Assembly: GCA_024276605.1 (NCBI GenBank)
Contig: JAJRWX010000008.1
Coordinates: forward strand, 62,001 to 126,000
Length of the DNA stretch: 64,000 nucleotides
From: Planctomycetota bacterium
GTDB lineage: Bacteria; Planctomycetota; Phycisphaerae; UBA1845
Direction of reading: 5' to 3'
In this document: in pieces, positions 4,227 to 33,885 of the stretch
Numbering within the stretch: the stretch's first letter is position 1
Layout of the letters: each line of letters starts with the position of its first letter
Translations under genes and position numbers: made by a program
Notes under the pieces: model-generated
Database searches by the model: none
What the model saw: the letters and a program-made list of their open reading frames with translations, nothing else
What the model was told of the DNA's origin: nothing

Positions 4227-4329
4227 CAATATCTCAATGTTTAATGAATGGCCGAACGACCTACTATTATGCGGTTATACGTGGACATGGCAAATGGCTT
4301 ATTCCAGTATCGTCGCTGAAAAAACGACT

Positions 4330-7831: not shown

Positions 7832-7931
7832 GGGTACGTGCTCTCCATCGCGGCTATATGCGCGAGTGAAAAGTTTACTCAAGCGGCGATGCGACGGCAA
7901 ATGTCTAGTGATTCGTCACAACTGAGAATTC

Positions 7932-11287: not shown

Positions 11288-11362
11288 TATAGTTATTTAA
11301 TGAAGGAATTAATCGGATATGGGCAAGTGCAAGCTTGTCACCTTAACATTTGGAGATACATC

Positions 11363-12698: not shown

Positions 12699-12710
12699 AT
12701 CGTCCCAGCT

Positions 12711-16290: not shown

Positions 16291-17905
16291 GCGGGGAAAA
16301 CGCAAGGTTTTAGCGATTGATTGGGATACGCGTACACTGCGCATCGCGCACGCGTTGGTCTCCAGTCGCGGTGTGAAGATCGATCGCCTGCTCAACGTGG
16401 GCATTCCTACCGAGGTTGATCCGAATGATGCACAACAATTTGGCGCACATATTCGTCGTGCGCTGGATCAGGAAGGCATCACCACCAAACACGCGGCTGT
16501 GGATATTCCGCGCGATCAGGCGGTGCTTAACACGTTGACTTTGCCCATGGCTGTGCCGGATGAACTGCCCGGCATGGTACAGATTCAGATAGCCAAGGAA
16601 CTTCCCTTTCCGGTGATCGATGCGGCGGTGGATTACACGGTGGGGTTTCCGGTAGGCGACGGCATGTCCTCGGAAGTGTTGGTGGCTGCGATTCGTCGCG
16701 AGGTGTTATCACAGTATGAAGCGATATTTTCAGCAGCGGATTTGAAGCTCGAACGGGTTGGTCTTCGCCCTTATGCCAACAAAGTGGCGGTGTGTGAACT
16801 GCTCAAGCATGCGATGCCTCATCTTGTGTTGTTTATCGATGTACGCCCGACGTTTATGGAAATTTCCGTATTGCGTCAGGGCGCGTTGGTCTTTTCGCGG
16901 GCTGCGTCGGTGGCGATGTCGGCTGGCGAGGATTTAACCGGTGCCTCTGCGTCGCTTAGTGAACCTATACCTCTAGCCACGAATGCCGTTGATGCGACAC
17001 TAAAATTTACGAATGTTGAGGCTCAGCCATCGAGTGCTTCTGCGATGGTGGCGTTGCTTATGGAAGTCACGCGATCGATTGAAGCGTATCGTGCATCAGA
17101 CGCTGGGGCTGAAATTGACCATGTGGTGATCGCAGGTGATACCGGTATGGAATCGCTGTTGTCGGATGCGATTCAAGCTCGTTTGCATGTGACGACGGAA
17201 ATGTACAACCCGGCGCGGACGTTTGGCTGGGAGCCTGATGAAGGGGCGGACGCGGCGGCCTTTGCGGCGGTGATGGGGTTGGTTCTGTCGGATGCCGGCG
17301 AGGACCAGCTTCATTTTGACTTTTTGCATCCTAAGAAAACGGAATCAGCCGCACGTAAGCGACTCAAGAAAGCGCCTTTGATCGCGGCGGCAGCGATGCT
17401 GTTTATCGTGGCCGGCGTCGTTGGCGTGGTGAAATTTACGGCGAACGATCGTGCCCGTTTAACTGATTTGGATGCACGAATAGCTGAGTTGACAGGTCAT
17501 CGCAAAGATAACAGAAAATTTCTTAAGCTTTACGAACAGTTGAATGATTTTGATAAGAGCCAGCGCGTGTGGGTGGATGTGCTGTTGGATGTGCTGTCGA
17601 ATTTTCCCTCGAATGAGGAAATGATTTTTGATCGTATTGATTTGAAGCAGTCAAAAGTCGGGGCTAAGGCCGACGAGCCGGCGCGCATCATCATTAGAAC
17701 CCGATGTAAACATCGTGCGACACCGGGTGAGTTGATCGAGAGTTTGCATGCGTATGTGCCGGAACAAGGCCATTGGCGAATTCGGGCAAACATGGGTTCC
17801 CAGTCTCCCAATATGAGAGAGAGTTATCCTTATGCGCAGGATATACGGATTGAGATTGTGTCAGTGAAGGAGAGCGGGAAGAAACGTCGCAAGGGTGTGA
17901 GTTAA
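16280..17905 (+). CDS. PilM-PilN fusion (GspL-role inner-membrane protein)
   Basis: Platform protein that links the cytoplasmic actin-like PilM module to the periplasmic PilN module. Residues about 8-330 show the PilM ATPase-like fold (VLAIDWDTRTLRIAHA at the start, AAVDIPRDQAVLNTL near 70). One transmembrane helix follows at about 364-386 (LIAAAAMLFIVAGVVGVV), then a short coiled coil and a PilN-like periplasmic domain. The GTG at 16280 is chosen because AAGGAG lies seven bases upstream; an ATG at 16256 would give eight more residues. It overlaps the gspK end. The fused arrangement equals GspL of classical T2SS. Confidence 0.85.
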   Translation: MSARRGKRKVLAIDWDTRTLRIAHALVSSRGVKIDRLLNVGIPTEVDPNDAQQFGAHIRRALDQEGITTKHAAVDIPRDQAVLNTLTLPMAVPDELPGMVQIQIAKELPFPVIDAAVDYTVGFPVGDGMSSEVLVAAIRREVLSQYEAIFSAADLKLERVGLRPYANKVAVCELLKHAMPHLVLFIDVRPTFMEISVLRQGALVFSRAASVAMSAGEDLTGASASLSEPIPLATNAVDATLKFTNVEAQPSSASAMVALLMEVTRSIEAYRASDAGAEIDHVVIAGDTGMESLLSDAIQARLHVTTEMYNPARTFGWEPDEGADAAAFAAVMGLVLSDAGEDQLHFDFLHPKKTESAARKRLKKAPLIAAAAMLFIVAGVVGVVKFTANDRARLTDLDARIAELTGHRKDNRKFLKLYEQLNDFDKSQRVWVDVLLDVLSNFPSNEEMIFDRIDLKQSKVGAKADEPARIIIRTRCKHRATPGELIESLHAYVPEQGHWRIRANMGSQSPNMRESYPYAQDIRIEIVSVKESGKKRRKGVS

Positions 17906-17935
17906 GACGGCATAAAGAAAAGCACTTGGTTGTTG

Positions 17936-19594
17936 ATGGACAAGAAAACGAAGATCCTGGCTGGTGTATTTGGTGTGATGGTGTTGTACATCATCGCCAC
18001 GAAAACGGTTTACCCGTGGCTGATTGAGCCTCTGGTGACGCTGGGGGATCGTGTCGTGCGTCGTGAGCTTGAGCTTGAAAAACTGGAGGAAAAGCAGGAG
18101 AAAGTAGCGTGGGCGGTTCGTGAGTATCGACGTTTGATGGATCGCATCGGGTCAGGTGATGTGGGTAAGGTTGAAAATGCCATACGTCAGCGGTTAAACA
18201 CACTGTTTGCCACACATAAACTTGAAGAAGCATCGACTTCTCCGACTAAACCACATGCCGACCGAAAGACTGGTGTCACCAAGATGACGCTTACGGTCAC
18301 GGCTGTTGGTTCATTGGAATCGGTGGTCTCGTTCATGCGTGACGTGAGCGAGTTACCTCAATTAATACGCATAGGAAATGCCTCAATCTTTCCAAAGAGT
18401 TCATCCCGCCGAGGTAAAAAAGCCAATCGTGAGCATGTCAATCTTCGGGTGCCGCTTGAGGTGTGGTTACTTCCTCAGCATAAAATGCTTGGCCGTAAGG
18501 TGGCGGATGCTGATTTGGATCAACCTGAAAAGATAGTTCGTCATACGCAGCGTGATTACTCATCGATATGGAAGCGGACGCCTTTTACGGAATTTGTGCC
18601 GTATAAGCCGTTGATTGCCTTCGCCGGTAAAAATCGATCCGTTGTGGTGGGCGAGAAGGTGACCCTGGCCGGTAGTGCGAAGGGTGGGGACGGTAAGTAC
18701 ACATTTGAGTGGTCCGGTGATCCCGGTTTGACGGGGGCGGAAACCAAGCGTGCTACGGTTGATACGTCGAAGGTGGGTACGTTTCATTATTCACTGACCG
18801 TGGCTGATGATAGTGATCATGTTTCTACGGCTCAAGTGACGGTGGATGTGAAGGAGAAGCCTAAGCCGGCCTTGGCGGAGGTGCCGCCGGAGGATAAGCC
18901 TGTACCGCAGCCGGTTGCGCCGGTGAAACGACGCGAGCGTTGGCCTAACGGTAAGCAAATGAAGATTCATGTGGCGTTGGTGCGCAGTCATGCGCAGGAT
19001 CGCTCGGGAGAAATACAGGTCTACGATTCCAAGCGTCGTGAGCGTTCGTATTATACGACCGGTGATGAGCTTGACGGGGGTACATTGGTTTTCGTTCATC
19101 CGCGTGCGGCGCTGGTACGCTGGGAAGATGAGTTTTTTGTCTATCCGGTCGGTGCGAAGTTAAGCGATGATCTACAGATAGCGGATGCGTCCGACTATCC
19201 TCGTTTTCAGACCATGGCTGAGCAAATACTAGCCTCGGAAAAAGTTCCGATTGAGACCCCCCGGGAGATCGTAGGGCCAACCGTAGGGGATGCTTCTGAT
19301 CATGCAGATTTGGTTGGTCCGCCCGCCCCGAAAGCGAAACCTGCGGAGGGTGCGCCGGTACAACAAGGTGGTGCCGGTATTCAGGTCGGTGGTGTGCCGG
19401 TAGTCGTACCTGCGAAAAGCCTTGAGGCTGCTTCGGTGCCGGCTCGGGGGGGTAAGCCGGTAGTTTTGCCGGGTCAGGCTGGTGAAGCTGAACAGTCTAA
19501 AGCGACCACGGCAAAGAAGAAACCTCAACCCACGAAAAAGCGTCCTAAGAAGCGCCGATCAAAGAAATTCAATAAACGTCGAGGTAGGCGGTAA
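17936..19594 (+). CDS. PilO-PKD-GspC/PilP HR-type fusion protein
   Basis: 552 residues from ATG 17936. Residues 1-200 resemble PilO/GspM: a TM helix at about 6-23, a charged coiled coil at 40-70, and a ferredoxin-like segment. Residues about 222-305 form a PKD/Ig-like domain (VTLAGSAKGGDGKYTFEWSG). Residues about 342-408 look like the homology region of GspC/PilP (RSYYTTGDELDGG, then LVFVHPRAALVRW), the part that binds the first secretin N-domain. A Pro/Ala-rich linker and a very basic Lys/Arg tail finish it. Family knowledge places it between the inner-membrane platform and the secretin. PilO and HR calls are by eye; PKD is clearer. Confidence 0.75.
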   Translation: MDKKTKILAGVFGVMVLYIIATKTVYPWLIEPLVTLGDRVVRRELELEKLEEKQEKVAWAVREYRRLMDRIGSGDVGKVENAIRQRLNTLFATHKLEEASTSPTKPHADRKTGVTKMTLTVTAVGSLESVVSFMRDVSELPQLIRIGNASIFPKSSSRRGKKANREHVNLRVPLEVWLLPQHKMLGRKVADADLDQPEKIVRHTQRDYSSIWKRTPFTEFVPYKPLIAFAGKNRSVVVGEKVTLAGSAKGGDGKYTFEWSGDPGLTGAETKRATVDTSKVGTFHYSLTVADDSDHVSTAQVTVDVKEKPKPALAEVPPEDKPVPQPVAPVKRRERWPNGKQMKIHVALVRSHAQDRSGEIQVYDSKRRERSYYTTGDELDGGTLVFVHPRAALVRWEDEFFVYPVGAKLSDDLQIADASDYPRFQTMAEQILASEKVPIETPREIVGPTVGDASDHADLVGPPAPKAKPAEGAPVQQGGAGIQVGGVPVVVPAKSLEAASVPARGGKPVVLPGQAGEAEQSKATTAKKKPQPTKKRPKKRRSKKFNKRRGRR

Positions 19595-19615: not shown

Positions 19616-22600
19616 ATGATAAGCCATCTGCAGAAACACGTTAAGCGTTTACAGGCTCAGTCTTTAGCACGCGCGCGGGGGTTGGATTGGTGGAAAACGG
19701 CGCTGATGGTTGCGTTTCTTTTTCCTTCGACTTCATTTGGACAGACACCTGCGAAGCGTCCGACAACGTTACCGAAACCTACTGCTCAAGATGCTGCTGA
19801 TAAACAGCGTAAGACTACAACTCGGCGGGTGAGTCCGCAGCGTCGTCGCACATCCAAGGCCGCGAAAAAAGGCGGCGTGCAGATACCGCCGGCTTCGGCC
19901 AGGGCACCGGGGAAGTCTGTCGTCAAGCCTGAAGATGCCAAAAGCAAAGCTACGATGACTGCGGCGGAGCGTGCGCAGCAGCGGCGCGAGGAAATTAAGG
20001 AGCGAAGACGCAAGGATAAGGCATCAAAGGCGGCAGGTGCATCGCGCAAACCACGCCTGCGCGATGGTCGTGTGGGTGGTAGCCAGGGTGGTTCATCTGC
20101 GAAAGATGCGACGATCAATATTCCACCGACGTTTTCTTCGATCACGCCGGAAGAGGGTAAATATCAATTCAGCATCGTTGACGGCACGTATGAAGATTTG
20201 ATTTCGATGGTGGCCAGGCAAACCGGTTTGGGTGTGATCGGTGTGAAGCCTCCGGATGGTAAGGTGAGCTTTGTTACGGAGGAAGAACTTTCGTTTGCCG
20301 AGCTGCTCAAGCGGATTCGTATGTTGTTGTTTAATTACAAGCCGTTGGAGCCTTATTGGTTGTTGCGACGGGAGACGCATCTGGAAGTGATTCGCGTGAA
20401 TGATTATTTGCGTGAGCTTGAGCCGGGGATGATGTATCGCAGCGTCGCTGAGTTTCGTGAGGCTAAACTGGCAGATGAAGAACTGGTGTTGGTCTTGTAT
20501 ACGCCGAAGTCCGGATCGTTAGCGGATTTGAAAATTGTTCGTGATTTCATGCCGGATTATGTACGGGTGACGCCGCTACAGAATTCCAATACGGTGGCGA
20601 TTTTTGCGCTGGCGAGTGATATTCGTAAATATCTGGATCTGGTGCCCATTTTGGTTTCACCGCAGGGACAGGATCCTCGTACGCTTGAAGTGATTAAGGT
20701 CAATCATATACCGCCGTCACAGGCTTATGAGAAACTGCAGGCGCTGATGGATTTGGGTGATGCTGGTGCACGTCCTCGGGCGCGGGCGGTGCGGGGTGTT
20801 AATAAGAGCGCGCTGGAAGGTGTCGCAGAACCGGCACTTAGCGTGGTACCTTCGGATGATCAGGGCGTGCTGATTGTTCGCGGGATGCGTAATAAGATTG
20901 ACGAGATCAAGTTGTTGTTGCCCTTTGTTGACGTAGATACAACAACTGATTTTCACCCTGTTGTCATCGATGTGAAGTATGCTGATCCTGAAGCGTTGGT
21001 GACCACATTACAGGATATATTAACACCGGTTGATCAAACGCCGAAGGTGAAACGACCGACACGCGGCAAGAAGCCTTCCGGAGGGCGCTCCGCTACGATG
21101 GATAAAATTCGCTTAATCACGCATCCGGTTGCGCGGGCGATTATTGTGATGGCTTCGAAAGAAGATGTAGCCCGCGTACGCCAACTGATTGAATCTTTTG
21201 ACATTGAAACGCAAGTCGGTCCGATTCGATTGGCGCTCGAGTATGCGGAAGCGGAAGATATTGTGGGGACCATATCCAAATTGATTGGTGGGCAGATTGG
21301 AAAGAAACCCAAGAAGGCCCGAACGCCGAGTGAAATGAAATCGGAAGTCGTGGCTGCGCCGAATGGTGATGCGATCTACTTCACCGGTACGCCGGAAGAT
21401 TTAGAGCAAGTGAAGCTTCTTCTTGTGGAACTTGATGTGGCGGGTGGTGAGGTCAAGCTCCATATCGTACTTTTGAAAAATCAGCTTCCTTCTTTTGTGG
21501 CGGGTATTTTACTGGAATATGAGAGTGGACGGGCCGGCTTGGCGGCAGGGCCTAGGCGTCCCGCGCGACCGAAAAGGCCGACGGGCAAGGTCAACACAAA
21601 AGGTAAGTTTACATCGGACGATGATAGCGGGCGTTTGTTTGTGCTGTGCAATGACGAGGAATGGGAAGCCTTTCAGCCGTTGATTGATGATCTTGAGTCA
21701 CTGCCGCAGGGAGCGGAGTTTGTTGTATTGCCGGTCGAACATATCTCGCCTGAGGTGGCGATTGAAAAAGTGTCGGCGCTGGTTGGAAGTAAAGAGACTA
21801 AGAGAGGCGCTGCGGCTTCGCTGGGTATACGTTATGAGACAGCGGATGGGGGGATGGTGGTGATTGGGGCGACGAATGCTCAGATTGCGCTGCTCAAGAA
21901 ATTGCTTACGCAGTTCGATCATCCTTCAGATATTATTCAGCGCGTCTTTGTCATCAAGCATCGGGGTGCGGCAGATATGATGGAGACGATCGAATCGCTG
22001 TTGGTGGATAGTGCGGGTGGTGGGCCGAAAAAGCCTCGACGAGGTAAGCCCAAGCCTGGGACGCCGAACACGGGTATAGACGACGGCCAGTTGAAAATCG
22101 TGCAGCTCGACAATCGCCTGATTGTGCGTACGTCTCCTGAGCAAATGGAAGAGGTGGCTAAGCTGATTCAGGAGTTTGATGTGGCGCGTGATACGCGCGA
22201 GATTCGCGTGTATGAGGATTTTCCCCCTGGTACGGATATTGTCGCTATCGCTGATTCGTTGCAGTCTTTGGTTTCATCCAAGGAAGGCGGTCCGGCGGTC
22301 AGGCCTAAGGTAGGCAAGAAGAATTCGAAGGCGATTGAAGGCGTAGAGTTTTTGCCTCAACCTTCTTCGGGCAAGTTGATTGTGATTGCTGCGTCGGCGC
22401 GATTCGCTGAGATCGAAGAACTTCTTGAAATCATCAGACCTACGGAAGACATTTTAGAGGTTGTTGTTGAATATGTTGACGTTACGCATGCCGACTCTGA
22501 GCAAATTGTGACTTTGATTGAACCTTTGCTGGCGATCAAAGTGCAACATTTGATTTTGACGGGTGTCATTAAAGAAGCGAGTGGGCGAACAGAATCTATG

Positions 22601-25600
22601 ACGCGTGTTGGCAAGAAGAAGAAACCGACGAGGTCGGCGGGTACGGGCGGTGATCTTTACGAATTGATACCTGATGCCCGTAACCATCGGATTGTCGTAG
22701 CGGCTGTTGAGCCGATTGTGGTTGAGGCGCGGAAGTTGATTCAGTCGTTTGATACGCCCTCTCAAGGGGATGAGATTCAGACGGTCTTTATTAAGATTCA
22801 ACATGCCGACCCGGCGGGACTGATTGAACTGATTGAACCACTGTTATCACTGAAGGTGCAGCAGATGGTGAGTGAAGGGCAGTTAGCTGACATGGTTGAT
22901 TCCGTGGGGGCTAGTAAGCCTAAAAAGCCCGGCATACGTATCGCCGGTCGAGCGGCGAAGGTGGATGATAAGCGGTTTCACATCATCGCGGATGATCGGA
23001 ATCGGCGTATCGTGATCGCGGCTCCGGAATCGATTATCGAAGAGGCGCGTCTGCTGGTATCGCAGTTTGATTTGCCGACGGAAAGTGGTGATGAGGTTGA
23101 GGTTGTCACGTTGGCTGTGCAGCATGTTGAGGTGGGTGAAATCGTTGAGCAGATTACTCCGCTCTTGGATATGAAAGTGCAGCAATTGGTGTTAGCGGGG
23201 ACGCTTTCAAGGGATGACGTGGTTGTGAGTCCGCCGAAGAGTAAACGTAAAGGCGGCAAAGTGACCGTTCCACGAAATCAAAGCTCGAAGCAGCCTGAGC
23301 GATATCATATGCAGGCTGATGAGCGCAATGGTCAGATTGTCCTGGCTGCTCCTCGTGCGATTATTGATGAGGCCCGCAGGTTGGTAGAGATGTTTGATAA
23401 GCCCGGTGACGATTCGGCGGCATTTGAGACTATTACGTTGCAAAACGCCGACGCCGGCGAGATGGTTAGTTCCATCCAGTCGCTGATGGGAAGTGACTCA
23501 CGTAGGAAGTCACCTAATTCCAGACTCAAGGGACAGGTGAAAATGCCGACTTCGACGGGTGAGTTTCGGATTGTCGAAGCACCCGGCGGGGCGGCTGTGG
23601 TTCTTCAGGGACCGGTCAAGCTTGTGGCGCAGGCTAAGGAATGGATTGCCCATCTGGATAGCATTGCCGGCGGCGCGCGGAGTTTGAAGATTTTTCAAAT
23701 TCAGCACATCGACATGAAAATGTTAGTGGACCTGATTGTGAATACGGTATCCGTACCGGCTAAGCGTACGGGTGTGCGGCGACCTAAGGCGAAAGCTCGA
23801 CCGACCGCCGGTGGTGGGCGTCAAATGCTGGCTGCGATGGAAGATGAAGAAGATGATGTGTTTGTAACCACGATTACACGAACGACGGATGATCTTTATC
23901 TGCGGGCGGATTTGATTGATCAAACGTTGATTGTCTCGGCTAGTCCATCGAAACTGACGGAAGTGGATCGCATCATTTCTAATTTGGATACGACGGATTC
24001 GCAGGAGTTAATCAACCCAGCGCCGGTCCCCAAATTTACATACACGTTAGAACATGTTGATGCCTACGATGCATCATATGAATTAGATGGCGTGTTATCC
24101 GTCTTGTGGGAACCCAGTGATGAGTTGCCTCATGTGGATTATGCCTCTTTTGGTGACATGTTGATTGTGCGCTACCCGCATGAGGAACGATTTGAAGAAA
24201 TCAGAGCGTTGATTCGTAAATATGTGGACAAGCCTAGCTCGTTAGCCCGCAGTCGCCCCAAGGCTTTTGCGGTGCCGGCTGGTATTAGTCCTAAGGATGT
24301 GGCGCTTTGGATGAAGATCAATCATCCGGAATTGGATATTGTAGTCGAGGATATAACGCCGCGCGAGGATCAAACGCATGGTGTGCAGGAGCTTGGTCCG
24401 CGGACGGGTGCGGTGAATCGATGTGTGATGCCACTTTCTTTTTCGGCAGCGTTGCAGGGGTTGATGGTGCCGGTCATAGGGCAAAAAGAGCCGCCGCCGT
24501 CGGGCAAAGCCTCATCGACTGATGGTGGTAAAGTTCCAGGCAAGAAATCGCCCCCAGTGAAAAAAGCCAAGCCTTCGGGTGATAGAGATGCGTTGTCCGA
24601 TTTAGTGCGGGATAAAGGGCGTGTCTTGCTTGACTCAGAGCCGGTGGAAAGTCACGACGTCGAGACAGTGACGACGGAACGTATGCCCACTAAAACCAAG
24701 AAAATCGCCTCGGCTGAGCAGGTGATTATTAAGTATGATGAATCCACCGGTGGCATGATCGTTGTTGGCAATCGGTCGGTATTGGAGGCTGTGCCGGATT
24801 GGCTTGAAGAATTAGAAGAGGAAATGAAAGACCTTCCTCGTCCGCCGGATATTCGCATTTATCGTGTTAAGTACATTGACGTATATAGCGCGACGGACAT
24901 TATCAATGAGATGTTCAATGCGACGCGACAGCAACGACAGCAAGCTTCGCGTGCGCAACAGCAGCAACAGCAACGAGCGCGACAGCAGCAAAAGCAGCAA
25001 CAGGGCAACAAGCGTCAAGCACAGCAGCAGAAGACTCAGCCTCAAGCGGTACCTCAGTTACCGCCGACTGCGGTGCGGGTGATGCCGAATCCGCGTGATC
25101 GGTCGCTGATTTTGCGTGCAGATACGAATCAGTATCCAGCTATTTTGAAGCTGTTATCTACGGTAGACCAACCTCGTCCCATCAACAGTGAGATGCGCAT
25201 TTTTCCGCTGGAGAAACTGAATGCTGCTGAGGTGGAAGCGCTATTAAAGGATTGGTTGGGCATGACCGCCACGCCGGCTCGTCCAACGTCGTCACGTGCG
25301 AAAAGTGGAGGTGCTCGTCGCCCTGGGACTCCGACGGCTCCGACTCGTAATAGTAGCAGTGGCGGACAGTTTCCCAGGCCGATCATGCAGCGGACGATTG
25401 CTGGTGATGAATTGGGTATTGATCCCAAGGACATCAAGCTTACGAGTAGCCCACGTAACAATACGATTATGGCGCTTGGTCCTAAGGCTGCGTTGGATTT
25501 CATTGGGGAGTTAATCGAAGACCTCGAAAGTAACGAGACCGCTGAGCGTACTTGGGTGCAATATAAGCTTGTGCATGCTGATGTGCCGACACTGATTTCT

Positions 25601-28396
25601 TATTTGCGTGGCCGGTATGCTGAAGGTGATGCGAAAAGTTCCGCCGGTCGCCGAAAAGACGATAGTGAATCGACGACGATTGCATCTACGGGTGGTTGGA
25701 ATTCTCCCACGGTGATTGGTTATCCGCCGTTAAAGATTCTATCCGTCGAAGGGACTACAAAGCAGCAAGAAGAAATTGCCGAGTTGATCACCGAGTTTGA
25801 CCGACCCGCCCAATCCGATTTTGAGGTAATCAACTTGGTCCATGCCGATGCCGCCTTAGTGGCAGAAACATTGACCTCGATATTTCGTGGAGTGAATTTG
25901 ACGCCGGAGAAGAAGCGTAGAAAAAAGAAATCCAAAACCAGCGGTACGACGCAGTCGCGATTCATCGGCCAAGAAGGCGGACGCATGGTGTTTTATAGTG
26001 CGCCTAAGCATTTACACAAGAAAATTCATGAGACGGTGCAGCAGCTTGAGGAGGCGGCTAAGGAGCGGGCTACGCTTCGAATTATTTCGCTGGCGCATGC
26101 TCGTCCCAGTGAAGTTTCGAAGGCGATCAATCAAGCCTATGCGTCGTCAGGATCGGATAAAAAAGGCGCCATGCCGGCCTTTACCGTGACGGGGGATGAT
26201 AGCACGAAACAGTTACTGGTGATGACTGATGACGACATGTTTTTAGAAATTGAGTCTCTGGTGAAATCGTTGGATAAGCCGCGCGAGATGGCTGCGGAGT
26301 TTCGTGTGTTTCGCCTGCAGTATGCTAATGCGCGTCGTATCTACGATACGTTAAGCAAGCTTATTGAAGATTACATCAGAGGTCTACCATCCGGAGAAAA
26401 GTTAGACGCCTTTGGGGCTGAGGTAGATGAAGAAGCCAATGCGATTATTGTGCTAGGCGGTCCGCTGATTTTTGGTTTTGTTGAGCACGCCTTGAAGCGT
26501 ATCGATACGCCTGAAAATGCTGAGCAACCGCCTGGGTTTTTTATGATCGCGCTGAAAAACGCAGATGCTAGAGAAGTAGCTGCCAACATTGCGCGCTTGT
26601 GGAGCGGAGAGGTGGGTGCCGCGGGTGAAAATCCGCCGGTTGTGGAGGCGAATGCTTCGCTCAATGTGTTGGTTGTTCGGGGTACACAGGAACAAGTCGA
26701 CCAGATCAGAAAGGATTTTGTTGATCCGCTGGAGGGTAACACGGCGGTGCAGCTTGTGACCGAGACGATCGTTTTGCAGCATATTCGTGCGGAAGAAGCG
26801 GCTGAGTTGATGACCACGATTTACGATAAGCGGCGGGAAGCGATGATAGAAATCAGCAAGGGGAGTCTGATTTCTCCGCATGAGTTTACGGTGGTAGTAA
26901 CTCCGGATAGCAGTACGAACACGCTTATTGTGCAGGCGAGCGAGGCAAACTTGGCTGACATCAAAGCGCGTGTCGCTGAGATGGATCAGGCTGATGTAGC
27001 CGCTCGATATGCGGTGACGACGAAGGTTTATGGTTTGATGTTCGCAGACCCGGGCGCTGTGGTGACAATTATTCGTGAACGTTCTCGCATGAAAGAGCAG
27101 CGCGGCGGGAAAAATAAGGTTTCCCTACAGGATTTAGTACTTGCGGTAGAAGAGCCGGCGACACAATCGGTAGCCGTGACGGCTAATGCAAATAATCACG
27201 AATGGGTTGAGACACTTATTGGTCAGCTTGATGATGAAGAAACGGCGTTAAGTCGCATCGATCAAGTAAAGACGATCAAACTAACTTACGCTGATCCGTT
27301 TATTGTTTCGGAAGCCATTACGCAACTATTTCGTGGCGGCGGCAAAGGCTCACAGTCCCAAGTGACGGCTGTGGCTGAGCCTGTGGCGCGTGTCGTTATT
27401 GTGACGGCTTCACAAGCGAACTTGAAGCGGATTGAGCGTTTGGTGGCGGAGCTGGATACCGAAGGCAGTAGTCAGCAAACCGTGCAAGTCGTGCACTTGG
27501 ACAATGCCGATGCGGAGTCCGTGGCTCGGACCTTGGATGATATATTCATTAAGTCTCAACCTAGCCGTCAGGGAAGTCAGGCGCCGCCGATTTCGATTTC
27601 AGCGCTAGGTGGTTCCAAGGCGGTATTGATTAAATCCAGTGCGGAAGATTATGCGGACATCAAGGCCGTTGTGTCGCAGTTGGACTCGGAGGAGGCGGGT
27701 ATCGGTGAATCGGTGCGTGTGATTACCCTATTGTATGCTGATGCCACCGAGGTGCAGCAGGCGATGCAGGAATATCTCAAAAAATCCGGAAAACAGAGTT
27801 CGGATGAATTGGTGGGCGATACGCGCATCAGCGTGTTGACGCAAAGTAACGGCTTGGTGGTTAGTGGTGGCAAGAGCCGTATTGATCAGATTGAGCAGTT
27901 GGTTCGTAAGTTGGATGAAGAAAGCGAAAAGGGCGTCGTTCCGCAGATCATCAAATTAAAATATGCAGAAGTTAAATATATTTTACCGCAACTCCAGGAA
28001 ATGTTTGTGGAGCAAAAGGGCGGCGGTCAACGTGAACGTGTTGTGCCGGTGATCGTGTCGAATGATTTGATGAATAGTCTCATCATCCGAGCTGCACCGG
28101 CTGATATAGCTGCGATTGAAGCGATCGTAAGCAAGCTGGATACCGAAGATGCTGCGTCGGTGACACCGTTTAAGATTGTTAAGGTGGCTTCGGGTATTAA
28201 TGTTGAAGATTTGGCGATGCTGTTGGAGACGAGTGTGAATGAAGGCATCAGGGCCTCCGCTCCGAAAGGAAAAGGACAGGGACGTAACGTCATCTCTTCG
28301 GTTACGATTCTGGCGGACAAGCGGACGAGTACATTGTTGTTGGGTGGTGATCCGTCTCATTTCAAAGAGATCGAAGAAATGGTTCAAGCGTATTAA
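19616..28396 (+). CDS. Giant secretin N-domain repeat protein without secretin barrel (2926 aa)
   Basis: A signal peptide (cleavage about G42, after LFPSTSFG) and a basic linker lead to an N0-like domain near residues 175-270 and then about 29 N1-type modules of 70-110 residues. Each has the pattern beta strand, 'ADA..V...L..L', a linker often rich in Lys/Arg/Gly, a 'D...N.LIV.A' strand, a helix, then 'LD' and frequently Pro. Linkers differ: one near residues 1772-1810 is almost pure Gln/Arg. No C-terminal secretin (PF00263-like) domain is seen. The reading frame stops at TAA 28394-28396 but continues in the same frame to 28648. Likely periplasmic, associated with the adjacent secretin; exact role unknown. 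Confidence 0.85.
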   Translation: MISHLQKHVKRLQAQSLARARGLDWWKTALMVAFLFPSTSFGQTPAKRPTTLPKPTAQDAADKQRKTTTRRVSPQRRRTSKAAKKGGVQIPPASARAPGKSVVKPEDAKSKATMTAAERAQQRREEIKERRRKDKASKAAGASRKPRLRDGRVGGSQGGSSAKDATINIPPTFSSITPEEGKYQFSIVDGTYEDLISMVARQTGLGVIGVKPPDGKVSFVTEEELSFAELLKRIRMLLFNYKPLEPYWLLRRETHLEVIRVNDYLRELEPGMMYRSVAEFREAKLADEELVLVLYTPKSGSLADLKIVRDFMPDYVRVTPLQNSNTVAIFALASDIRKYLDLVPILVSPQGQDPRTLEVIKVNHIPPSQAYEKLQALMDLGDAGARPRARAVRGVNKSALEGVAEPALSVVPSDDQGVLIVRGMRNKIDEIKLLLPFVDVDTTTDFHPVVIDVKYADPEALVTTLQDILTPVDQTPKVKRPTRGKKPSGGRSATMDKIRLITHPVARAIIVMASKEDVARVRQLIESFDIETQVGPIRLALEYAEAEDIVGTISKLIGGQIGKKPKKARTPSEMKSEVVAAPNGDAIYFTGTPEDLEQVKLLLVELDVAGGEVKLHIVLLKNQLPSFVAGILLEYESGRAGLAAGPRRPARPKRPTGKVNTKGKFTSDDDSGRLFVLCNDEEWEAFQPLIDDLESLPQGAEFVVLPVEHISPEVAIEKVSALVGSKETKRGAAASLGIRYETADGGMVVIGATNAQIALLKKLLTQFDHPSDIIQRVFVIKHRGAADMMETIESLLVDSAGGGPKKPRRGKPKPGTPNTGIDDGQLKIVQLDNRLIVRTSPEQMEEVAKLIQEFDVARDTREIRVYEDFPPGTDIVAIADSLQSLVSSKEGGPAVRPKVGKKNSKAIEGVEFLPQPSSGKLIVIAASARFAEIEELLEIIRPTEDILEVVVEYVDVTHADSEQIVTLIEPLLAIKVQHLILTGVIKEASGRTESMTRVGKKKKPTRSAGTGGDLYELIPDARNHRIVVAAVEPIVVEARKLIQSFDTPSQGDEIQTVFIKIQHADPAGLIELIEPLLSLKVQQMVSEGQLADMVDSVGASKPKKPGIRIAGRAAKVDDKRFHIIADDRNRRIVIAAPESIIEEARLLVSQFDLPTESGDEVEVVTLAVQHVEVGEIVEQITPLLDMKVQQLVLAGTLSRDDVVVSPPKSKRKGGKVTVPRNQSSKQPERYHMQADERNGQIVLAAPRAIIDEARRLVEMFDKPGDDSAAFETITLQNADAGEMVSSIQSLMGSDSRRKSPNSRLKGQVKMPTSTGEFRIVEAPGGAAVVLQGPVKLVAQAKEWIAHLDSIAGGARSLKIFQIQHIDMKMLVDLIVNTVSVPAKRTGVRRPKAKARPTAGGGRQMLAAMEDEEDDVFVTTITRTTDDLYLRADLIDQTLIVSASPSKLTEVDRIISNLDTTDSQELINPAPVPKFTYTLEHVDAYDASYELDGVLSVLWEPSDELPHVDYASFGDMLIVRYPHEERFEEIRALIRKYVDKPSSLARSRPKAFAVPAGISPKDVALWMKINHPELDIVVEDITPREDQTHGVQELGPRTGAVNRCVMPLSFSAALQGLMVPVIGQKEPPPSGKASSTDGGKVPGKKSPPVKKAKPSGDRDALSDLVRDKGRVLLDSEPVESHDVETVTTERMPTKTKKIASAEQVIIKYDESTGGMIVVGNRSVLEAVPDWLEELEEEMKDLPRPPDIRIYRVKYIDVYSATDIINEMFNATRQQRQQASRAQQQQQQRARQQQKQQQGNKRQAQQQKTQPQAVPQLPPTAVRVMPNPRDRSLILRADTNQYPAILKLLSTVDQPRPINSEMRIFPLEKLNAAEVEALLKDWLGMTATPARPTSSRAKSGGARRPGTPTAPTRNSSSGGQFPRPIMQRTIAGDELGIDPKDIKLTSSPRNNTIMALGPKAALDFIGELIEDLESNETAERTWVQYKLVHADVPTLISYLRGRYAEGDAKSSAGRRKDDSESTTIASTGGWNSPTVIGYPPLKILSVEGTTKQQEEIAELITEFDRPAQSDFEVINLVHADAALVAETLTSIFRGVNLTPEKKRRKKKSKTSGTTQSRFIGQEGGRMVFYSAPKHLHKKIHETVQQLEEAAKERATLRIISLAHARPSEVSKAINQAYASSGSDKKGAMPAFTVTGDDSTKQLLVMTDDDMFLEIESLVKSLDKPREMAAEFRVFRLQYANARRIYDTLSKLIEDYIRGLPSGEKLDAFGAEVDEEANAIIVLGGPLIFGFVEHALKRIDTPENAEQPPGFFMIALKNADAREVAANIARLWSGEVGAAGENPPVVEANASLNVLVVRGTQEQVDQIRKDFVDPLEGNTAVQLVTETIVLQHIRAEEAAELMTTIYDKRREAMIEISKGSLISPHEFTVVVTPDSSTNTLIVQASEANLADIKARVAEMDQADVAARYAVTTKVYGLMFADPGAVVTIIRERSRMKEQRGGKNKVSLQDLVLAVEEPATQSVAVTANANNHEWVETLIGQLDDEETALSRIDQVKTIKLTYADPFIVSEAITQLFRGGGKGSQSQVTAVAEPVARVVIVTASQANLKRIERLVAELDTEGSSQQTVQVVHLDNADAESVARTLDDIFIKSQPSRQGSQAPPISISALGGSKAVLIKSSAEDYADIKAVVSQLDSEEAGIGESVRVITLLYADATEVQQAMQEYLKKSGKQSSDELVGDTRISVLTQSNGLVVSGGKSRIDQIEQLVRKLDEESEKGVVPQIIKLKYAEVKYILPQLQEMFVEQKGGGQRERVVPVIVSNDLMNSLIIRAAPADIAAIEAIVSKLDTEDAASVTPFKIVKVASGINVEDLAMLLETSVNEGIRASAPKGKGQGRNVISSVTILADKRTSTLLLGGDPSHFKEIEEMVQAY

Positions 28397-28648
28397 CGTC
28401 TTGGACCCACCGGCGAGACGATCAAAATTATTCAACTTGGTTCAACGCCTGCCAACGAGGTGATTGCGCTGATCGATCAACTGAAAGGTACCTCGAGCCG
28501 AAGTCGGTCGGGTGGTCGATCGGGCAGTAGTGCAGGTAGAAGAGGTAGACGTAGCGGCCAAGGTAGCTCTAATCGACAAATGGGTGGTTCACGAAATTCA
28601 GGCTCAAGATCACGCGGTTCTCAGAGTCGACCTAATCGAAGACGGTAA
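28397..28648 (+). pseudogene. In-frame continuation of the giant protein after a TAA
   Basis: Directly after TAA 28394-28396, in the same frame, 83 codons continue a normal module: RLGPTGETIKIIQLGSTPAN and EVIALIDQLKG form the first half of an N1 unit. A Ser/Arg/Gly-rich basic tail follows, ending at TAA 28646-28648. GAA to TAA would be one change. The piece is therefore a lost C-terminus, a readthrough extension or the result of a sequence error. It has no good start of its own. Confidence 0.7.
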
Positions 28649-28751: not shown

Positions 28752-31700
28752 GTGATAATAGTAAGGGCAACGATGATGAAGAAGTTGCAAAAGCGGCGCA
28801 AAGGATCGGTATGGCGGATCGACAATGATGATGTCGATCAGAGGCGAAAGGTGCATCATAAAACGCAGGTCTATGGGCTTCGCGTAGGAGTAGGACGTGT
28901 GCTGCTCTCGATGTGCGCGCTCATGGCTTATGCGTTATCCAGTTCTTGCGCGTTTGGACAACCACAACAAGATGCCGCACCATCGGCTGAAAAACAACCT
29001 GCTGAGCCGACTGATGCAGGAAAGTCGAAGACCGGCCATCGAATAGATACGACCAATGTCAAGCTTTCCGGCGCTGATCTGTATTATGAGGTGGTTGGTA
29101 AGCAATTGATCTTGAAGGGTAATCAAGCCGACCTGGATTTAGTGGATGCGCTGATTACGGTATTGGAAGATGCGACGGAAGTCCCTGAACTTCGTGTGAT
29201 AACGGTGACGAGGAAGGATGCCAACGATATTGCATCAACGGTGGGGCCTGCGCTACGTAAAGTATTGTATGATCCGAACATTCGATCAGAGCATGAAGTG
29301 TCGGTGACGGCATTATCTTCGAATATTATTCTTATCTCAGCGTTACCGCGACATATCGATTTTGCCGTTCAGACTATCCTGCAGGTTGACGAAGTGGTGG
29401 ACACGCTTGGCCAATATGAGCAATTGGTGTTTACGATTAAGCATCGCCAAGCTTCTGAAGTGGCGGATGAGTTACGTGATATTTTAGGCAAGTTGAAAGA
29501 AAAGACGGGAGCGCAAGGGCCTAAGGGTGAAATACAAATCATTCCCAACAATGCGAACAATACGATTCTCGTCATCGCGCCGGAGTCGGACCGACTCACC
29601 ATACAGAATTTTATCAACACGATTGATGTAGAGCCGGCTAAGGGTTGGGGCGAGGTGAAGTTGACCGTGTTTCCGTTGCTACATTCCAAGCCTGAAGAGA
29701 TGTCGAAGGTCATCACCGATTTGTTAGCTACTGAGCAAGGGCAACAAGAAGCAGCTGAAGTGATCTTTCGGTTGAGCATAAGTAAAGCGATGCCCGACGG
29801 CAGTATGTTGGATATGTCGCCGATCGATTTGGGTAAACCGATGCGCATCATTGCCCATGCCGGAACCAATAGTTTGATTATCGCGACGGTGGAAGAAAAC
29901 GTCGGACCGATGAGCGAACTCATTCGTATGTTGGACGGCGTGGCGATCAGTGAGGAGGTTGATGTTCAACTGTTCCCGCTACGTTTTGCTGATGCTGAAA
30001 CGGTACGGGATGTACTGCGAAGTATGTTTGATGACGGCAAGACGCTGCCGGAGGATCCCGACGGTAGCGGGAACACTTCCGTACCGCAGGGCGATCAAGG
30101 TAAAGCGTTATCTTACAACATAGGTATTGGCGCAGACGCCCGGACCAACACGTTGATTATTTCCGGTAGACCTGAGCAGTTGCAATTGGCTGAGGTGGTG
30201 ATCAATAAGCTGGATCAACCTTCTTCCACGCTGAAGTTTCCTATTCGCTTCGTGCAGCTTGAATATACCGATGCAAGCCGTGTGGGTGATATTATCAAGG
30301 ATTTATTTGCTCAGCGACTGGAAACGGCTCAAACGATCAATGCCGGTCAGGTGGCATTAGCGCGAGACGATCTTTTCCTGACGGTTGATATGCGAAGTAA
30401 CTCATTGATCGTATCTGCGTCGGAAGAAAACTTTGCCGAGATTGAAAAAATTGTGCGTCAGCTTGATACGAAGCCGGCGAAATTGTTTGATCAGATTCGT
30501 ATCGTGAAGTGTGATCGACTGTCGGCGAAGAATATGAAGGAAAAAATAGACGAACTCTGGCAGCGCAAGGCGAGTCTGCGCCAGAATGAAGAATTGTTGG
30601 AAGACACGCCCATCCTCGTGGCGGATGGACGTAGTAACTCACTGGTTGTGGCTTCGAGTGTGGAGGATTTTGAAGAAATCCGTCGGTTAATCAAGCGTCT
30701 GGAAGCTCAACCGTTAATTGAGGATACGCGTATTTTCAAACTCACTTTTGCAGACACAGCCGTGTTGGCGGGTATGTTGGAAGAATTGTTTCAGGGTATG
30801 GAGGGGGCGTCAGAGTCGTTTACGGCACCGACGGTCATTGCTGATTCACGAAGTAATGCGTTGTTAGTGGCTGGGACGCGCGATAGTCTGGAGCGGGCTG
30901 CTGAGATTATCCCCAGGCTTGATGTCAAAGCCGGACCTAACACGGCAGCGATCAGAGTGTATCCATTGCATCATGGTAGTGCCATCAAATTGGCTCCACG
31001 TATGCAGGAATTGTTTGATTCACGGTCTGAGGGGCAGGATGTAGCGAGTACGCCGGTGGTGCTATTGGCTGATGAAGCTACAAACACCGTGGTGGGTAGC
31101 GCGTCGCGCGACGATCACGAGATCATCGTTGAGTTGTTACAGAAATTGGACCAACCCTCGACGCTGGCTAAGCAGTTCCAGATATTCCCGCTCAAGATGG
31201 CCAAAGCTGCACCGATTGCTGAAAAGCTGGAGAGCTTGTTTCAATCACAGGGAAGTGAGGGTCGAGCGGATGTGATTGCGATTGAAATCGATGAACGCAT
31301 CAATGCACTGATCGTCTGGGCGTCTCAGTCTGAAATGGACAATATTTCCAATATTATTACACGACTTGATTCTGCGAAGCCGGTGTTGGAGATGAAGGTG
31401 AAAGTGATTCAGTTGCGACAGGCGCTAGCTGAGGATTTTGCTGACGTGCTTGAGCAGACGCTCATTGGTGAAGAAGGCGGTGAAGAGGGTGAGGAAGCCA
31501 TCATCATCACCTTTGATGAGAAGCAGCCTGACGGCACCTACATTACACGCAAGTTATTGCGACAGGATATTCGCATTCAACCAGATCCGCGTACGAATTC
31601 GCTCATGGTCATGGCCCCGGCTGAGAGTATGGATATGCTGGAATCAATGATTTTGGATTTCGACCGGGTACATCCGATACGTTCCGAGCTTCGCTTGTTT

Positions 31701-33278
31701 CAATTGATCAACGCGGATGCTGAAACGATGGTTGATCGTTTGGAGGAGTTGTTCCAAACGGATGGCGGGGAGGATGGGCCTCAATCGCAGATTCAGTTTG
31801 GTATGCTGGGTGAATTTGAAATAGCCAGTGTAGGTCAAGACCTTCGATTTACCGCGGATGTGCGTACGAATACGCTCATTGCTGCCGGGGCGGAGGTTGA
31901 TTTGCGTATGGTCGAGTCCCTGGTGCAGTATCTCGATGCCCAGGAAGCTGAGGTTCGGGTGGTGGAAGTGATGCAGACAAACTACCGCGAAGCTTCACAG
32001 ATTGCTGATGCGTATCAAAACTTCATCCAACAAGAAGAAGATGTCTACGGTGATATTGATGATGAAGAAGCTCAGCGCCGTCGTATGGAGCGTCAGGTTT
32101 CCATCGAGGCGATTGGCGATGAAGAAGGTGGTACGAGTCATTTGATGATCGGGGCCAGTCGGGGGGCTTTTGAGCAAACGATGGATATGATTCAGCGGTT
32201 GGACCAACCGGAGCCTCAGGTGATGATCTCGGTGGTTATTGCGGAGATTACGCAAACGGATGATCTGGAGCTGGGTATTGAAATTGCCGGCCAGGATTTG
32301 CATTTTTCGGAAGAAGCGATTGTCGGGCCGAACGGTATTATTCAAGGGTCAGACTTTGACTTCGTGTCCGGGACTGATCTTGGCGCCGCGGGTTTGGGGC
32401 TTGGCGGTTTTAATTTTACAATTACTGGCGCAGATTTCAGCTTCTTGTTTCGCGCACTTCAGCAGGAAAGTCGGCTGGAAGTGTTGTCGCGTCCAGCCTT
32501 ACTCGTGCGTAACGGCGAGGAGGGTAGTATTACGATTGCTGATGAGGTGCCGATTGTTGAATCCTCGCGATTAAATGATACCGGTCAGACACAGTCTACG
32601 ATTGGTCGGGAAGATGTGGGTATTGTTTTGACAGCCACGCCGCAGATTAGTCCTGATGGTTATGTAACCATCGCGTTGACCCAAGAAATTTCTAACATTG
32701 GTGAGAATATTGTGCTCACTGAAGGTGTAGCCTCACCGATTTTCCAAACACGTGAGGTAGTGACCAATGTTACGGTGCGAGATGGCGAGACGGTGATCAT
32801 TGGTGGATTAATCCAAAAGCGTGTCTCACGAGGTGTAAATAAAGTACCGATTCTGGGTGATTTACCGTATATAGGTGTACTGTTTCGATCGATGAGTTCG
32901 AGTGAATCCAAGACTGAATTGGTCGTTGTGATGACGGTTGATATTCTTCGCACCGACGAGGATCTACATGATATGTCCATTGAAGAGCGTGACAATGCAG
33001 ATTTACCTGACTGGTTAAGGCAGAGTCCGTTAATGAAGAGTCTGAGGATTATGCCGGAAGATTCTGCGATGGGTCCGGAACCTGTAGATCTGCCTCTAGA
33101 TTATGGTCAGAAAAAGCCAACGCCGCAAAAACGACAAGAATTGAAACAGTACGGGCCTAAGCCAAAAACTTACGGCCCGATTATTTCCAGGCCTGAGCCT
33201 GTTACACGCGCAGAGCGGGCAGTGTATGGTCCCCGGATACTATCGAATCAGACCTTGGTTCAGGATTCCAGGCAATAG
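28752..33278 (+). CDS. gspD: T2SS outer-membrane secretin GspD with about 12 N-domain modules
   Basis: Forms the multimeric outer-membrane channel. 1508 residues against about 650-750 in classical GspD. GTG 28752 has GGAGG six bases upstream; ATG 28773 is an alternative. The signal segment ends SSSCAFG. Then about 12 N1-like modules, each ending in '..LD', run to about residue 1150. The secretin domain covers about 1155-1405 with VMISVVIAEI, EVLSRPALLVRNGEEG, VGIVLTATPQIS, FQTREVVTNVTVRDGETV and VPILGDLPYIGVLFR. A proline-rich tail with three YGP motifs may be the pilotin-binding S-domain (inference). Its modules resemble those of the 2926-residue neighbour. Confidence 0.95.
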   Translation: MIIVRATMMKKLQKRRKGSVWRIDNDDVDQRRKVHHKTQVYGLRVGVGRVLLSMCALMAYALSSSCAFGQPQQDAAPSAEKQPAEPTDAGKSKTGHRIDTTNVKLSGADLYYEVVGKQLILKGNQADLDLVDALITVLEDATEVPELRVITVTRKDANDIASTVGPALRKVLYDPNIRSEHEVSVTALSSNIILISALPRHIDFAVQTILQVDEVVDTLGQYEQLVFTIKHRQASEVADELRDILGKLKEKTGAQGPKGEIQIIPNNANNTILVIAPESDRLTIQNFINTIDVEPAKGWGEVKLTVFPLLHSKPEEMSKVITDLLATEQGQQEAAEVIFRLSISKAMPDGSMLDMSPIDLGKPMRIIAHAGTNSLIIATVEENVGPMSELIRMLDGVAISEEVDVQLFPLRFADAETVRDVLRSMFDDGKTLPEDPDGSGNTSVPQGDQGKALSYNIGIGADARTNTLIISGRPEQLQLAEVVINKLDQPSSTLKFPIRFVQLEYTDASRVGDIIKDLFAQRLETAQTINAGQVALARDDLFLTVDMRSNSLIVSASEENFAEIEKIVRQLDTKPAKLFDQIRIVKCDRLSAKNMKEKIDELWQRKASLRQNEELLEDTPILVADGRSNSLVVASSVEDFEEIRRLIKRLEAQPLIEDTRIFKLTFADTAVLAGMLEELFQGMEGASESFTAPTVIADSRSNALLVAGTRDSLERAAEIIPRLDVKAGPNTAAIRVYPLHHGSAIKLAPRMQELFDSRSEGQDVASTPVVLLADEATNTVVGSASRDDHEIIVELLQKLDQPSTLAKQFQIFPLKMAKAAPIAEKLESLFQSQGSEGRADVIAIEIDERINALIVWASQSEMDNISNIITRLDSAKPVLEMKVKVIQLRQALAEDFADVLEQTLIGEEGGEEGEEAIIITFDEKQPDGTYITRKLLRQDIRIQPDPRTNSLMVMAPAESMDMLESMILDFDRVHPIRSELRLFQLINADAETMVDRLEELFQTDGGEDGPQSQIQFGMLGEFEIASVGQDLRFTADVRTNTLIAAGAEVDLRMVESLVQYLDAQEAEVRVVEVMQTNYREASQIADAYQNFIQQEEDVYGDIDDEEAQRRRMERQVSIEAIGDEEGGTSHLMIGASRGAFEQTMDMIQRLDQPEPQVMISVVIAEITQTDDLELGIEIAGQDLHFSEEAIVGPNGIIQGSDFDFVSGTDLGAAGLGLGGFNFTITGADFSFLFRALQQESRLEVLSRPALLVRNGEEGSITIADEVPIVESSRLNDTGQTQSTIGREDVGIVLTATPQISPDGYVTIALTQEISNIGENIVLTEGVASPIFQTREVVTNVTVRDGETVIIGGLIQKRVSRGVNKVPILGDLPYIGVLFRSMSSSESKTELVVVMTVDILRTDEDLHDMSIEERDNADLPDWLRQSPLMKSLRIMPEDSAMGPEPVDLPLDYGQKKPTPQKRQELKQYGPKPKTYGPIISRPEPVTRAERAVYGPRILSNQTLVQDSRQ

Positions 33279-33288
33279 GTGAGGTATT

Positions 33289-33885
33289 GTGGCGACTTAT
33301 CAAAGTAAGCAAGCAGCTCTGTGTGTTGGTTTGATCGTTATGAGTGCCCTTTGCGGTTGCCAGACCGATGGCACGCGCAGTGCTTCCTACGCCATTGTCG
33401 GTTCGTCTGATGGTCACAAGAAATCGACTGCACGGTTGACGAAGAAAAGTCGGCGTGATCGAACCGGAAGAATCCGTTATATTCGGTGTTTATATGATCA
33501 AAAGCCGTGGGTCAGCGCGGATAAAGCCGGCGATCGTGACCCGGAAGGCATTCATTATCGCGTATTTCTCCAGCCGGTGAGTAAGGATGGCTTTAGTAAG
33601 AGTGTCCTACAGGATGGCGAATTATACATCGAAATGTACCGTATCGATCGTGAGAGGGATGGTACCACTACTCGCGTATTGGTTAGCGATTGGCGGTATC
33701 CAACGAGCACGTTCCAACCCCTTCGCTCGAAAGTTCTCGGCATGGGATACCATATATGGTTACGTTGGGCGAAAAAGAGCTTAGCCGGTAAGGATGTCGA
33801 ATTTGTTACCTGGTTTGAAGACTCTTACGGCAAAAAAGTCCGTTCGAGTACGAAACGTTTTCTAGTTCCCAGCTATGTGCCTTAG
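33289..33885 (+). CDS. Small lipoprotein after gspD, possible pilotin
   Basis: 198 residues from GTG 33289, with GAGG four bases upstream. The lipoprotein signal VMSALCGC places the lipidated Cys at residue 24. The mature part is basic at first, then a compact mixed domain with many aromatic residues (GMGYHIWLRWAKKSL, EFVTWFEDSYGKKVR). I do not recognise the family. Ten bases after gspD in the same direction, it is placed where outer-membrane pilotins or accessory lipoproteins often are; that function is inference only. Confidence 0.7.
   Translation: MATYQSKQAALCVGLIVMSALCGCQTDGTRSASYAIVGSSDGHKKSTARLTKKSRRDRTGRIRYIRCLYDQKPWVSADKAGDRDPEGIHYRVFLQPVSKDGFSKSVLQDGELYIEMYRIDRERDGTTTRVLVSDWRYPTSTFQPLRSKVLGMGYHIWLRWAKKSLAGKDVEFVTWFEDSYGKKVRSSTKRFLVPSYVP

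Follow-up and report, generated by a model that had tools for sequence, protein, structure and literature searches.

The subject of this analysis is a pair of adjacent genes on the forward strand of a 64,000-nucleotide stretch of the genome of a Planctomycetota bacterium (contig JAJRWX010000008.1, positions 62,001 to 126,000), which we will refer to as the window. The downstream gene encodes a secretin related to GspD of the type II secretion system (T2SS), and the upstream gene encodes a giant protein made mostly of secretin N-domain modules (N-modules). We propose, with a probability of roughly 0.62, that these two proteins belong to one T2SS/pseudopilus super-secretin, with the giant as its inner section and the secretin as its outer section. 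The barrel-bearing secretin has the following features (positions in the window).

28752..33278, + strand: barrel piece, a T2SS-type secretin (GspD) of 1508 amino acids (aa), from its open reading frame (ORF) and profile matches
28881..28958, + strand: signal-peptide-like stretch, hydrophobic residues ~43-67, ending ..AFGQ, from a hydropathy scan read by eye
29064..29171, + strand: C-terminal half-module (beta-beta-alpha), residues ~105-140, which opens the barrel piece, from a half-profile and a model
29196..32204, + strand: twelve N-modules, residues 149-1151, each at E<1e-4 by our own profile, 10 by Pfam, with an AlphaFold2 model and Foldseek
32454..32951, + strand: secretin barrel domain, residues 1235-1400, Pfam PF00263 (156 bits in the genome-wide search)

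The listed start of the secretin is a GTG, and an ATG lies 21 bases further in, at 28773. The initial annotation of this locus had named a clear C-terminal secretin, and profile searches of the 1508-aa protein bear this out: Pfam Secretin (PF00263) scored 151 bits (cut-off 27.5) and the gspD equivalog TIGR02517 scored 513.4 bits (cut-off 351.35), while the PilQ profile reached 256.7 bits, under its cut-off of 284.35. The same annotation had counted about 12 N-modules, roughly three to four times as many as usual. When we ran the profile count, a refined module profile placed 12 modules at E<1e-4 (residues 149-213, 226-292, 306-395, 408-488, 501-572, 584-650, 661-724, 736-800, 811-873, 885-971, 983-1062 and 1073-1151), with a leading half-module at residues 115-137 (E 0.008), and Pfam Secretin_N gave 10 significant stretches (379 bits). 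This profile was first built from the window proteins and then refined on 13 related chains that include the window's own, which makes it partly circular; support independent of it came from Pfam, a reversed and shuffled null, 24 control GspD proteins and predicted structure. At E<1e-4 neither null set, reversed or shuffled (59,040 residues each), gave a match; at the looser E<0.01 the reversed set gave 4. In 24 of 24 complete GspD proteins from outside the planctomycetes the same profile found between 1 and 3 modules, with a median of 3, so the annotation's estimate of the excess was right.

Predicted structure gave the same count. An AlphaFold2 model of secretin residues 97-1163 (mean predicted local distance difference test, pLDDT, 71.4; predicted TM-score, pTM, 0.24), which informs the folds of the modules and not their arrangement, starts with a beta-beta-alpha half-module, after which come 12 beta-alpha-beta-beta-alpha units, and in Foldseek this module model matched GspD N-domains at E 3.7e-8. 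The half-module scored 11.3 against its half-profile (99% quantile of shuffled sequences, 4.3) and corresponds to model elements E15-19, E22-26 and H29-43. Where GspD has three N-modules (N1-N3) and an N0 domain on the same chain, the barrel piece has 12 modules and a half, and our N0 profile (see below) found no N0 domain on it. Two other genomes of the genus (L015 and L016) carry the same giant and secretin genes, so the window's gene pair is not an assembly oddity.

The giant neighbour has these features.

19616..28396, + strand: giant N-terminal piece of 2926 aa, with a signal peptide, N0 and 27 or more modules and without a barrel (ORF, Pfam, own profile, N0 profile)
20147..20419, + strand: N0 domain of the giant, residues 178-268 (N0 profile, profile search of the Protein Data Bank (PDB), model comparison)
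20690..28387, + strand: 27 giant modules, residues 359-2924 (refined profile, E<1e-4)

Pfam recognized 17 of the giant's modules, and weak modules at residues ~280-346 and ~1475-1540 were left out of our count. For the N0 domain, a profile built from 17 regions and searched against the whole PDB returned GspD N0 chains as the six best of 19 matches (top E 0.0019). A model of giant residues 172-732 (pLDDT 71.3) matched PulD (E 7.5e-11; Z 12.4), and the modeled N0 aligned with that of 4jtm (Z 10.8, root-mean-square deviation (rmsd) 2.4, 78 residues aligned), with 3oss_D (Z 9.9, rmsd 1.9, 77 residues) and with 9u5s_R (Z 7.8). The N0 profile matches giants, the N-termini of the single-chain relatives described below and the N0 of proteobacterial GspD (3e-9 in L108); on 8 barrel pieces its best E was 0.046. 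Pfam N0 (PF21305) matched 3 of the 17 N0 rows, with no match in the window's own row, and Pfam TcpQ matched 2 of the 17 weakly.

The modules of the giant and the secretin are homologous, as the initial annotation had suspected, and for 9 of the 27 giant modules the closest paralogue lies within the secretin. Giant modules 8-10, neighbours 42-47% identical to each other, appear from this identity to be a recent tandem expansion. Such homology would fit the further suggestion of that annotation, that the giant is a duplicated secretin which lost its barrel and is now a separate partner. The N0 domain, which the giant has and the secretin lacks, does not fit an origin of this kind, and neither do the relatives that carry all of these parts on one chain.

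We collected 22 complete single chains of 3109-5073 aa (L028, L029, L031, L032, L115-L120, L122-L130 and L132-L134). In 22 of 22, an N0 near the N-terminus is followed by 29-51 modules (median 42) and a C-terminal barrel. These chains belong to other families of the window's order and class (Phycisphaerae), and assembly error is unlikely because several lie on contigs of 3.4-4.3 Mb. Since N0 is found on the giant only, and single-chain relatives join N0, modules and barrel, we interpret the giant as the N-terminal portion of a single super-secretin that is split in two. Together with the positional matching and the break inside a module reported below, the single chains make us regard duplication followed by barrel loss as very improbable, and we do not retain that part of the initial annotation.

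The single chains also bear on whether the giant might stand outside the channel as an independent scaffold in the periplasm, bound for example to peptidoglycan or to the inner membrane. Its separate signal peptide and the basic 134-aa stretch that precedes its N0 (net charge +24) would suit such a role, but the same parts stand in line with the barrel in the single-chain relatives, and the two genes are neighbours both in the window and in its relatives: in the window the giant gene immediately precedes the secretin gene, and so it does at 9 of 9 loci of the same family that extend far enough (at L020 the contig ends). We consider a scaffold improbable. As to charge in general, the secretin is acidic (net -96, isoelectric point (pI) 4.5) and the window giant is near neutral (pI 6.1); complementarity between a basic giant and an acidic secretin was dropped as a sign of stacking, as other giants of the window's family (f1) are acidic too (pI 5.05-6.28).

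Comparison of module order further connects the split pair to the other chains. When giant plus secretin were aligned over their whole length with each of 11 other chains, the native order outscored all 20 shuffles of the giant modules in 10 (z 3.1-19.4). Across 14 single chains, the best match fell N-terminal of the joint in 280 of 378 comparisons of giant modules and C-terminal of it in 140 of 182 comparisons of secretin modules. The position of a block is thus conserved and that of a single module blurred, as would follow from gain and loss of modules by tandem duplication, for which giant modules 8-10 are an example. A one-by-one mapping of module order inside the giant was too noisy and was discarded.

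The place of the gene break supplies evidence of another kind, for which two features at the end of the giant are needed.

28394..28396, + strand: TAA stop of the giant, where L015 and L016 read Glu in '..AYERLGPTG..' (joint comparison)
28397..28648, + strand: open frame of 83 more codons after the TAA, with an N-terminal half-module (IKIIQLGSTPANEVIALIDQLKG) and an Arg/Ser-rich tail as in the giants of relatives (homology to L015, L016 and L034)

The break between giant and secretin falls within a module, with the beta-alpha half upstream and the beta-beta-alpha half downstream, after the signal peptide. We read 20 gene joints (families f1, f2, f5 and f6 and named relatives) and scored 19, L041 being dropped as near-identical. 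The C-half (beta-beta-alpha) scored above the 95% shuffle quantile in 18 of 19 downstream heads (17 above 99%), and the N-half (beta-alpha) in 14 of 19 upstream tails (11 above 99%), where an Arg/Ser-rich tail was mostly present. In the control search for the N-half in downstream heads, the count was 1 of 19. The window's own tail half-module had a half-profile score of -0.5, not over its shuffles, and was placed by near-identity to L015 and L016 and by L034; the TAA ahead of it could reflect either an error in sequencing or a true truncation. At two other loci the pieces lie very close: the upstream and downstream pieces share one frame with one stop codon between them at L054 (6251-6253) and with nine bases between them at L025 (7989-7997), which are candidates for very close gene breaks or for read-through.

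In secretins, each N-domain of the oligomer forms one ring, N0 points toward the inner membrane, and the family forms 12-17-fold ring oligomers in the outer membrane. For a split super-secretin, chain 1 (the giant) would turn its N0 to the inner-membrane platform and continue with about 27-29 N-modules, and chain 2 (the secretin) would add 12 further N-modules and end in the outer-membrane barrel. Each chain would be exported by its own signal peptide, and the two would bind at the joint, where the beta-alpha half of chain 1 and the beta-beta-alpha half of chain 2 could form one composite module that knits them together. With the usual oligomer (15 in GspD), one ring per module and coaxial stacking, about 40 rings of 2.8-4.4 nm each would build a conduit of about 110-180 nm, of which the secretin piece alone would make about 35-55 nm. 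A conduit of this length would suit the wide, variable periplasm of Planctomycetota and would presumably serve secretion with a pseudopilus. We infer, in line with the initial annotation, that the two proteins together would make a long periplasmic channel. The smaller ring height is that of the BfpB N3 ring, ~25% of 113 Å (PMC12114550), and the larger is our own arithmetic, (35 nm minus an 8.5-nm barrel)/6; the periplasm of planctomycetes is described as wide and variable (PMC5394234). Articles are cited here by their PubMed Central (PMC) numbers.

Alternatively, most of the modules could be beads and not stacked rings of a tube; the chains would then hold the outer-membrane barrel to the inner membrane as long arms, flexible or elastic, with a channel formed only from the barrel-adjacent modules. 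This would agree with a module number that varies freely (29-51 in the 22 single chains), with the long, variable and often charged loops between modules, and with predicted models that give no fixed arrangement. The best structural matches of the modules, however, are the ring-forming N-domains of GspD, and 22 of 22 chains retain N0 and the barrel at their opposite ends. We consider tethering arms unlikely, if still worth keeping in view.

Several observations weigh against a split super-secretin. GspC (PF11356), the usual partner of N0, had 0 matches in the window's own genome, which is 96% complete, a result to be read beside the 2 of 14 control genomes in which this model matches. The C-half also exceeded the 95% quantile in 9 of 19 upstream tails used as a control (2 above 99%). 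The window giant ends 84 codons before its relatives, at its TAA, and if the base there is right, its half of the shared module is lost. The order of modules did not beat the shuffles in the single chain L029/G044 (z 1.2), and module order within the giant alone correlated with that of single chains in 2 of 14. The structure models of the two proteins, with pTM of 0.24 and 0.35, say nothing on the packing of modules, and we know of no tomogram of a planctomycete of the window's class. Finally, in P. limnophila the membranes come close together at crateriform structures (PMC5394234), and this closeness does not call for a 100-nm tube there.

A survey of the phylum found a secretin in 291 of 294 genomes, and single ORFs of at least 3109 aa in at least 15 genomes, all of the window's class, among the matches listed. 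Barrel proteins had 5-8 modules in the Pirellulales type (17 complete), 8-11 in the Gemmataceae type (6 complete) and 10-16 in the window's family (14 complete); the lengthening of secretins is therefore graded across the phylum, and it is extreme in Phycisphaerae. The forty-module form was seen here in the window's class only. These data bear on whether the window simply holds an ordinary GspD variant, with extra modules that are tandem-duplication noise of no architectural consequence. Giant modules 8-10 could be taken as such noise, but an expansion kept across a class, with position-specific conservation, could not, and we find this explanation hardly credible.

In a tree of 54 barrel rows, the window's order forms one group of 31 rows (support 90/94). 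Inside it, single-chain families (f3 with f4; f8) and split families (f1, f2, f5, f6) are intermixed, and because these inner forks are weak (80-94), the tree allows both fission and fusion; more than one change is needed. Elsewhere in the phylum, a secretin that lacks N0 is followed by a giant that has N0 and 13-14 modules and lacks a barrel at two loci of Planctomycetia type (L070, 13637-21361; L085, 8486-15424); these may be two-piece secretins with reversed gene order in another class.

A more far-reaching variant of the proposed super-secretin divides the chain into three sections: A (N0 and ~10 modules), B (~14 modules) and C (~14 modules and the barrel). In the window, the A/B joint is internal to the giant.

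24422..24484, + strand: internal A/B joint of the giant, residues 1603-1623, with a conserved CVMPLSFSAALQGLMVPVIGQ stretch (alignment, motif search)

In the f8 clade of eight single chains (L031, L032, L051, L055 and L115-L118), a hydrophobic stretch ending in [AG]Q lies between the two half-modules of the B/C joint in 8 of 8, and the stretch at the A/B joint ends in [GA]Q in 7 of 8. Family f2 has a second gene break, followed by a new signal peptide, at the A/B joint. Single chains L031, L051 and L115-L118 and the window-family giants, unsplit and split chains of distant families, share the A/B motif C-[VA]-[LM]-P-x-[SA]-[LFM], after which comes a hydrophobic stretch with GQ or AQ at its end; as a regular expression the motif had 22 matches in 4.27 million six-frame residues from all the loci collected, 21 of them in these chains (some loci overlap, and these are not 21 independent genes). 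The stretches are weaker in the f4 clade (best 15-residue hydropathy 0.90-2.12 at B/C and at most 0.95 at A/B), and 13 chains of families f9, f12, f15 and f16 have no such joint, with the exception of a gap of 201 aa in L129 that contains a hydrophobic stretch. Just past the A/B stretch, f8 chains carry CxxC motifs (CSLC, CPIC; L031 residues ~1342-1395 and the same region of L116-L118).

These signal-like stretches are either remains of fused genes, polyprotein processing sites or hydrophobic loops of the channel. Internal translation starts in the single chains are not supported: in the 9 chains read, the stretches have no consistent start codon ahead of them. By textbook topology, a lone hydrophobic segment within a chain that is exported would be poorly positioned for signal peptidase, which counts against simple processing. 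Tentatively, and as a rather unlikely elaboration, the three sections in this order of Phycisphaerae would each have an export signal of their own and be re-knit after export through their split modules into a channel of ~40 rings and >100 nm; in the unsplit lineages, the stretches ..A[MIV][AG]Q (B/C) and PCVLPxSL...GQ (A/B) would then be polyprotein processing sites.

The secretin closes a T2SS-like run of genes on one strand, in the order GspF, GspG, minor pseudopilin-like, GspK, GspL/PilM-like, GspM-like, giant and secretin.

10085..11287, + strand: GspF (profile matches)
11300..11824, + strand: GspG major pseudopilin (TIGR01710, 104 bits, cut-off 89)
11937..14518, + strand: three minor-pseudopilin-like ORFs, one GspH-like, one without family and one GspJ-like (weak, below Pfam cut-offs except N_methyl)
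14515..16290, + strand: GspK (Pfam)
16256..17905, + strand: GspL/PilM-like protein (Pfam, NCBIfam)
17930..19594, + strand: GspM-like protein with a PKD domain (T2SSM_b E 0.003, below cut-off; PKD 31.6 bits, cut-off 27)
33289..33885, + strand: lipoprotein-like ORF of 198 aa, 10 bases past the secretin stop (ALCGC lipobox read by eye)

The run thus includes the T2SS core genes GspF, GspG, GspK and a GspL/PilM-like gene, and ATPases of the GspE/PilB/PilT family are encoded elsewhere in the genome (4.5 Mb), where the search found four secretins. Given the PKD domain on the GspM-like protein, the inner-membrane platform may be lengthened too. The 198-aa ORF has no Pfam, NCBIfam or PHROG match and could be a candidate pilotin. 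Named relatives of the secretin gene come from Phycisphaerae metagenome-assembled genomes, including Phycisphaerales UBA1845 (L044) and isolates OFTM182/258/371.

With a barrel protein that has about four times as many modules as usual, and ~40 modules over two genes once its partner is counted, this is an extreme variant of the T2SS secretin. It shares with GspD, PulD and XcpQ the C-terminal barrel, the N-domain fold, N0 and an operon with GspF-, GspG-, GspK-, GspL- and GspM-like genes, and differs from them in that it has 12 plus at least 27 modules where they have N1-N3, its N0 sits on the other polypeptide, and the genome gave no GspC match. In BfpB-BfpG and TcpQ-type pairs of type IVb pili, the N0-like domain presumably sits on a separate small protein (PDB 9u5s entered here as a structural match only), so that a partner with an N0-like fold likewise stands beside the secretin; the partner here carries 27 modules as well, and the secretin itself lacks N0. 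The single-chain secretins of the Pirellulales and Gemmataceae types share the phylum, a related barrel in the tree and the graded lengthening, but have far fewer modules (5-8 and 8-11). PilQ of Thermus thermophilus is likewise lengthened to span a wide periplasm, but it is one chain with six rings, compared with about forty modules on two chains here. Its six rings (N0-N5) are called 'unusual' (PMC5745081), and at ~35 nm in a ~70-nm periplasm it is among the largest secretins known (PMC5745081, PMC4463427).

The average length of the secretin family is given as 555 ± 151 aa (PMC4827864). In the available parts of the open-licence literature searched (including PMC5745081, PMC4463427, PMC5394234, PMC3422733, PMC4827864 and PMC12114550), we found no secretin with more than six N-rings or split over two genes, an absence that is not proof. 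A chain of up to 51 N-modules, or one spread across two or three genes that break within modules, poses the problem of its export, of its assembly through peptidoglycan and of its gating, and raises the question whether a pseudopilus can push cargo through a channel of such length. The gene pair also offers a gene with which to test how the wide, variable periplasm of Planctomycetota is bridged, a question tied to their crateriform structures and macromolecule traffic (PMC5394234).

Away from this run, the reverse strand of the window carries other genes of interest. A Ser/Thr protein kinase with PD40 beta-propeller repeats lies at 1413-4229, and a Rhomboid-like protein at 35912-37117 has rhombosortase-like and BamD-like stretches, under curated cut-offs. 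Positions 4467-5852 and 5852-7900 encode GatD and GatE (GatE PRK04028, 523.6 bits, cut-off 456), the Glu-tRNA(Gln) amidotransferase pair known from archaea, here in a bacterial genome.

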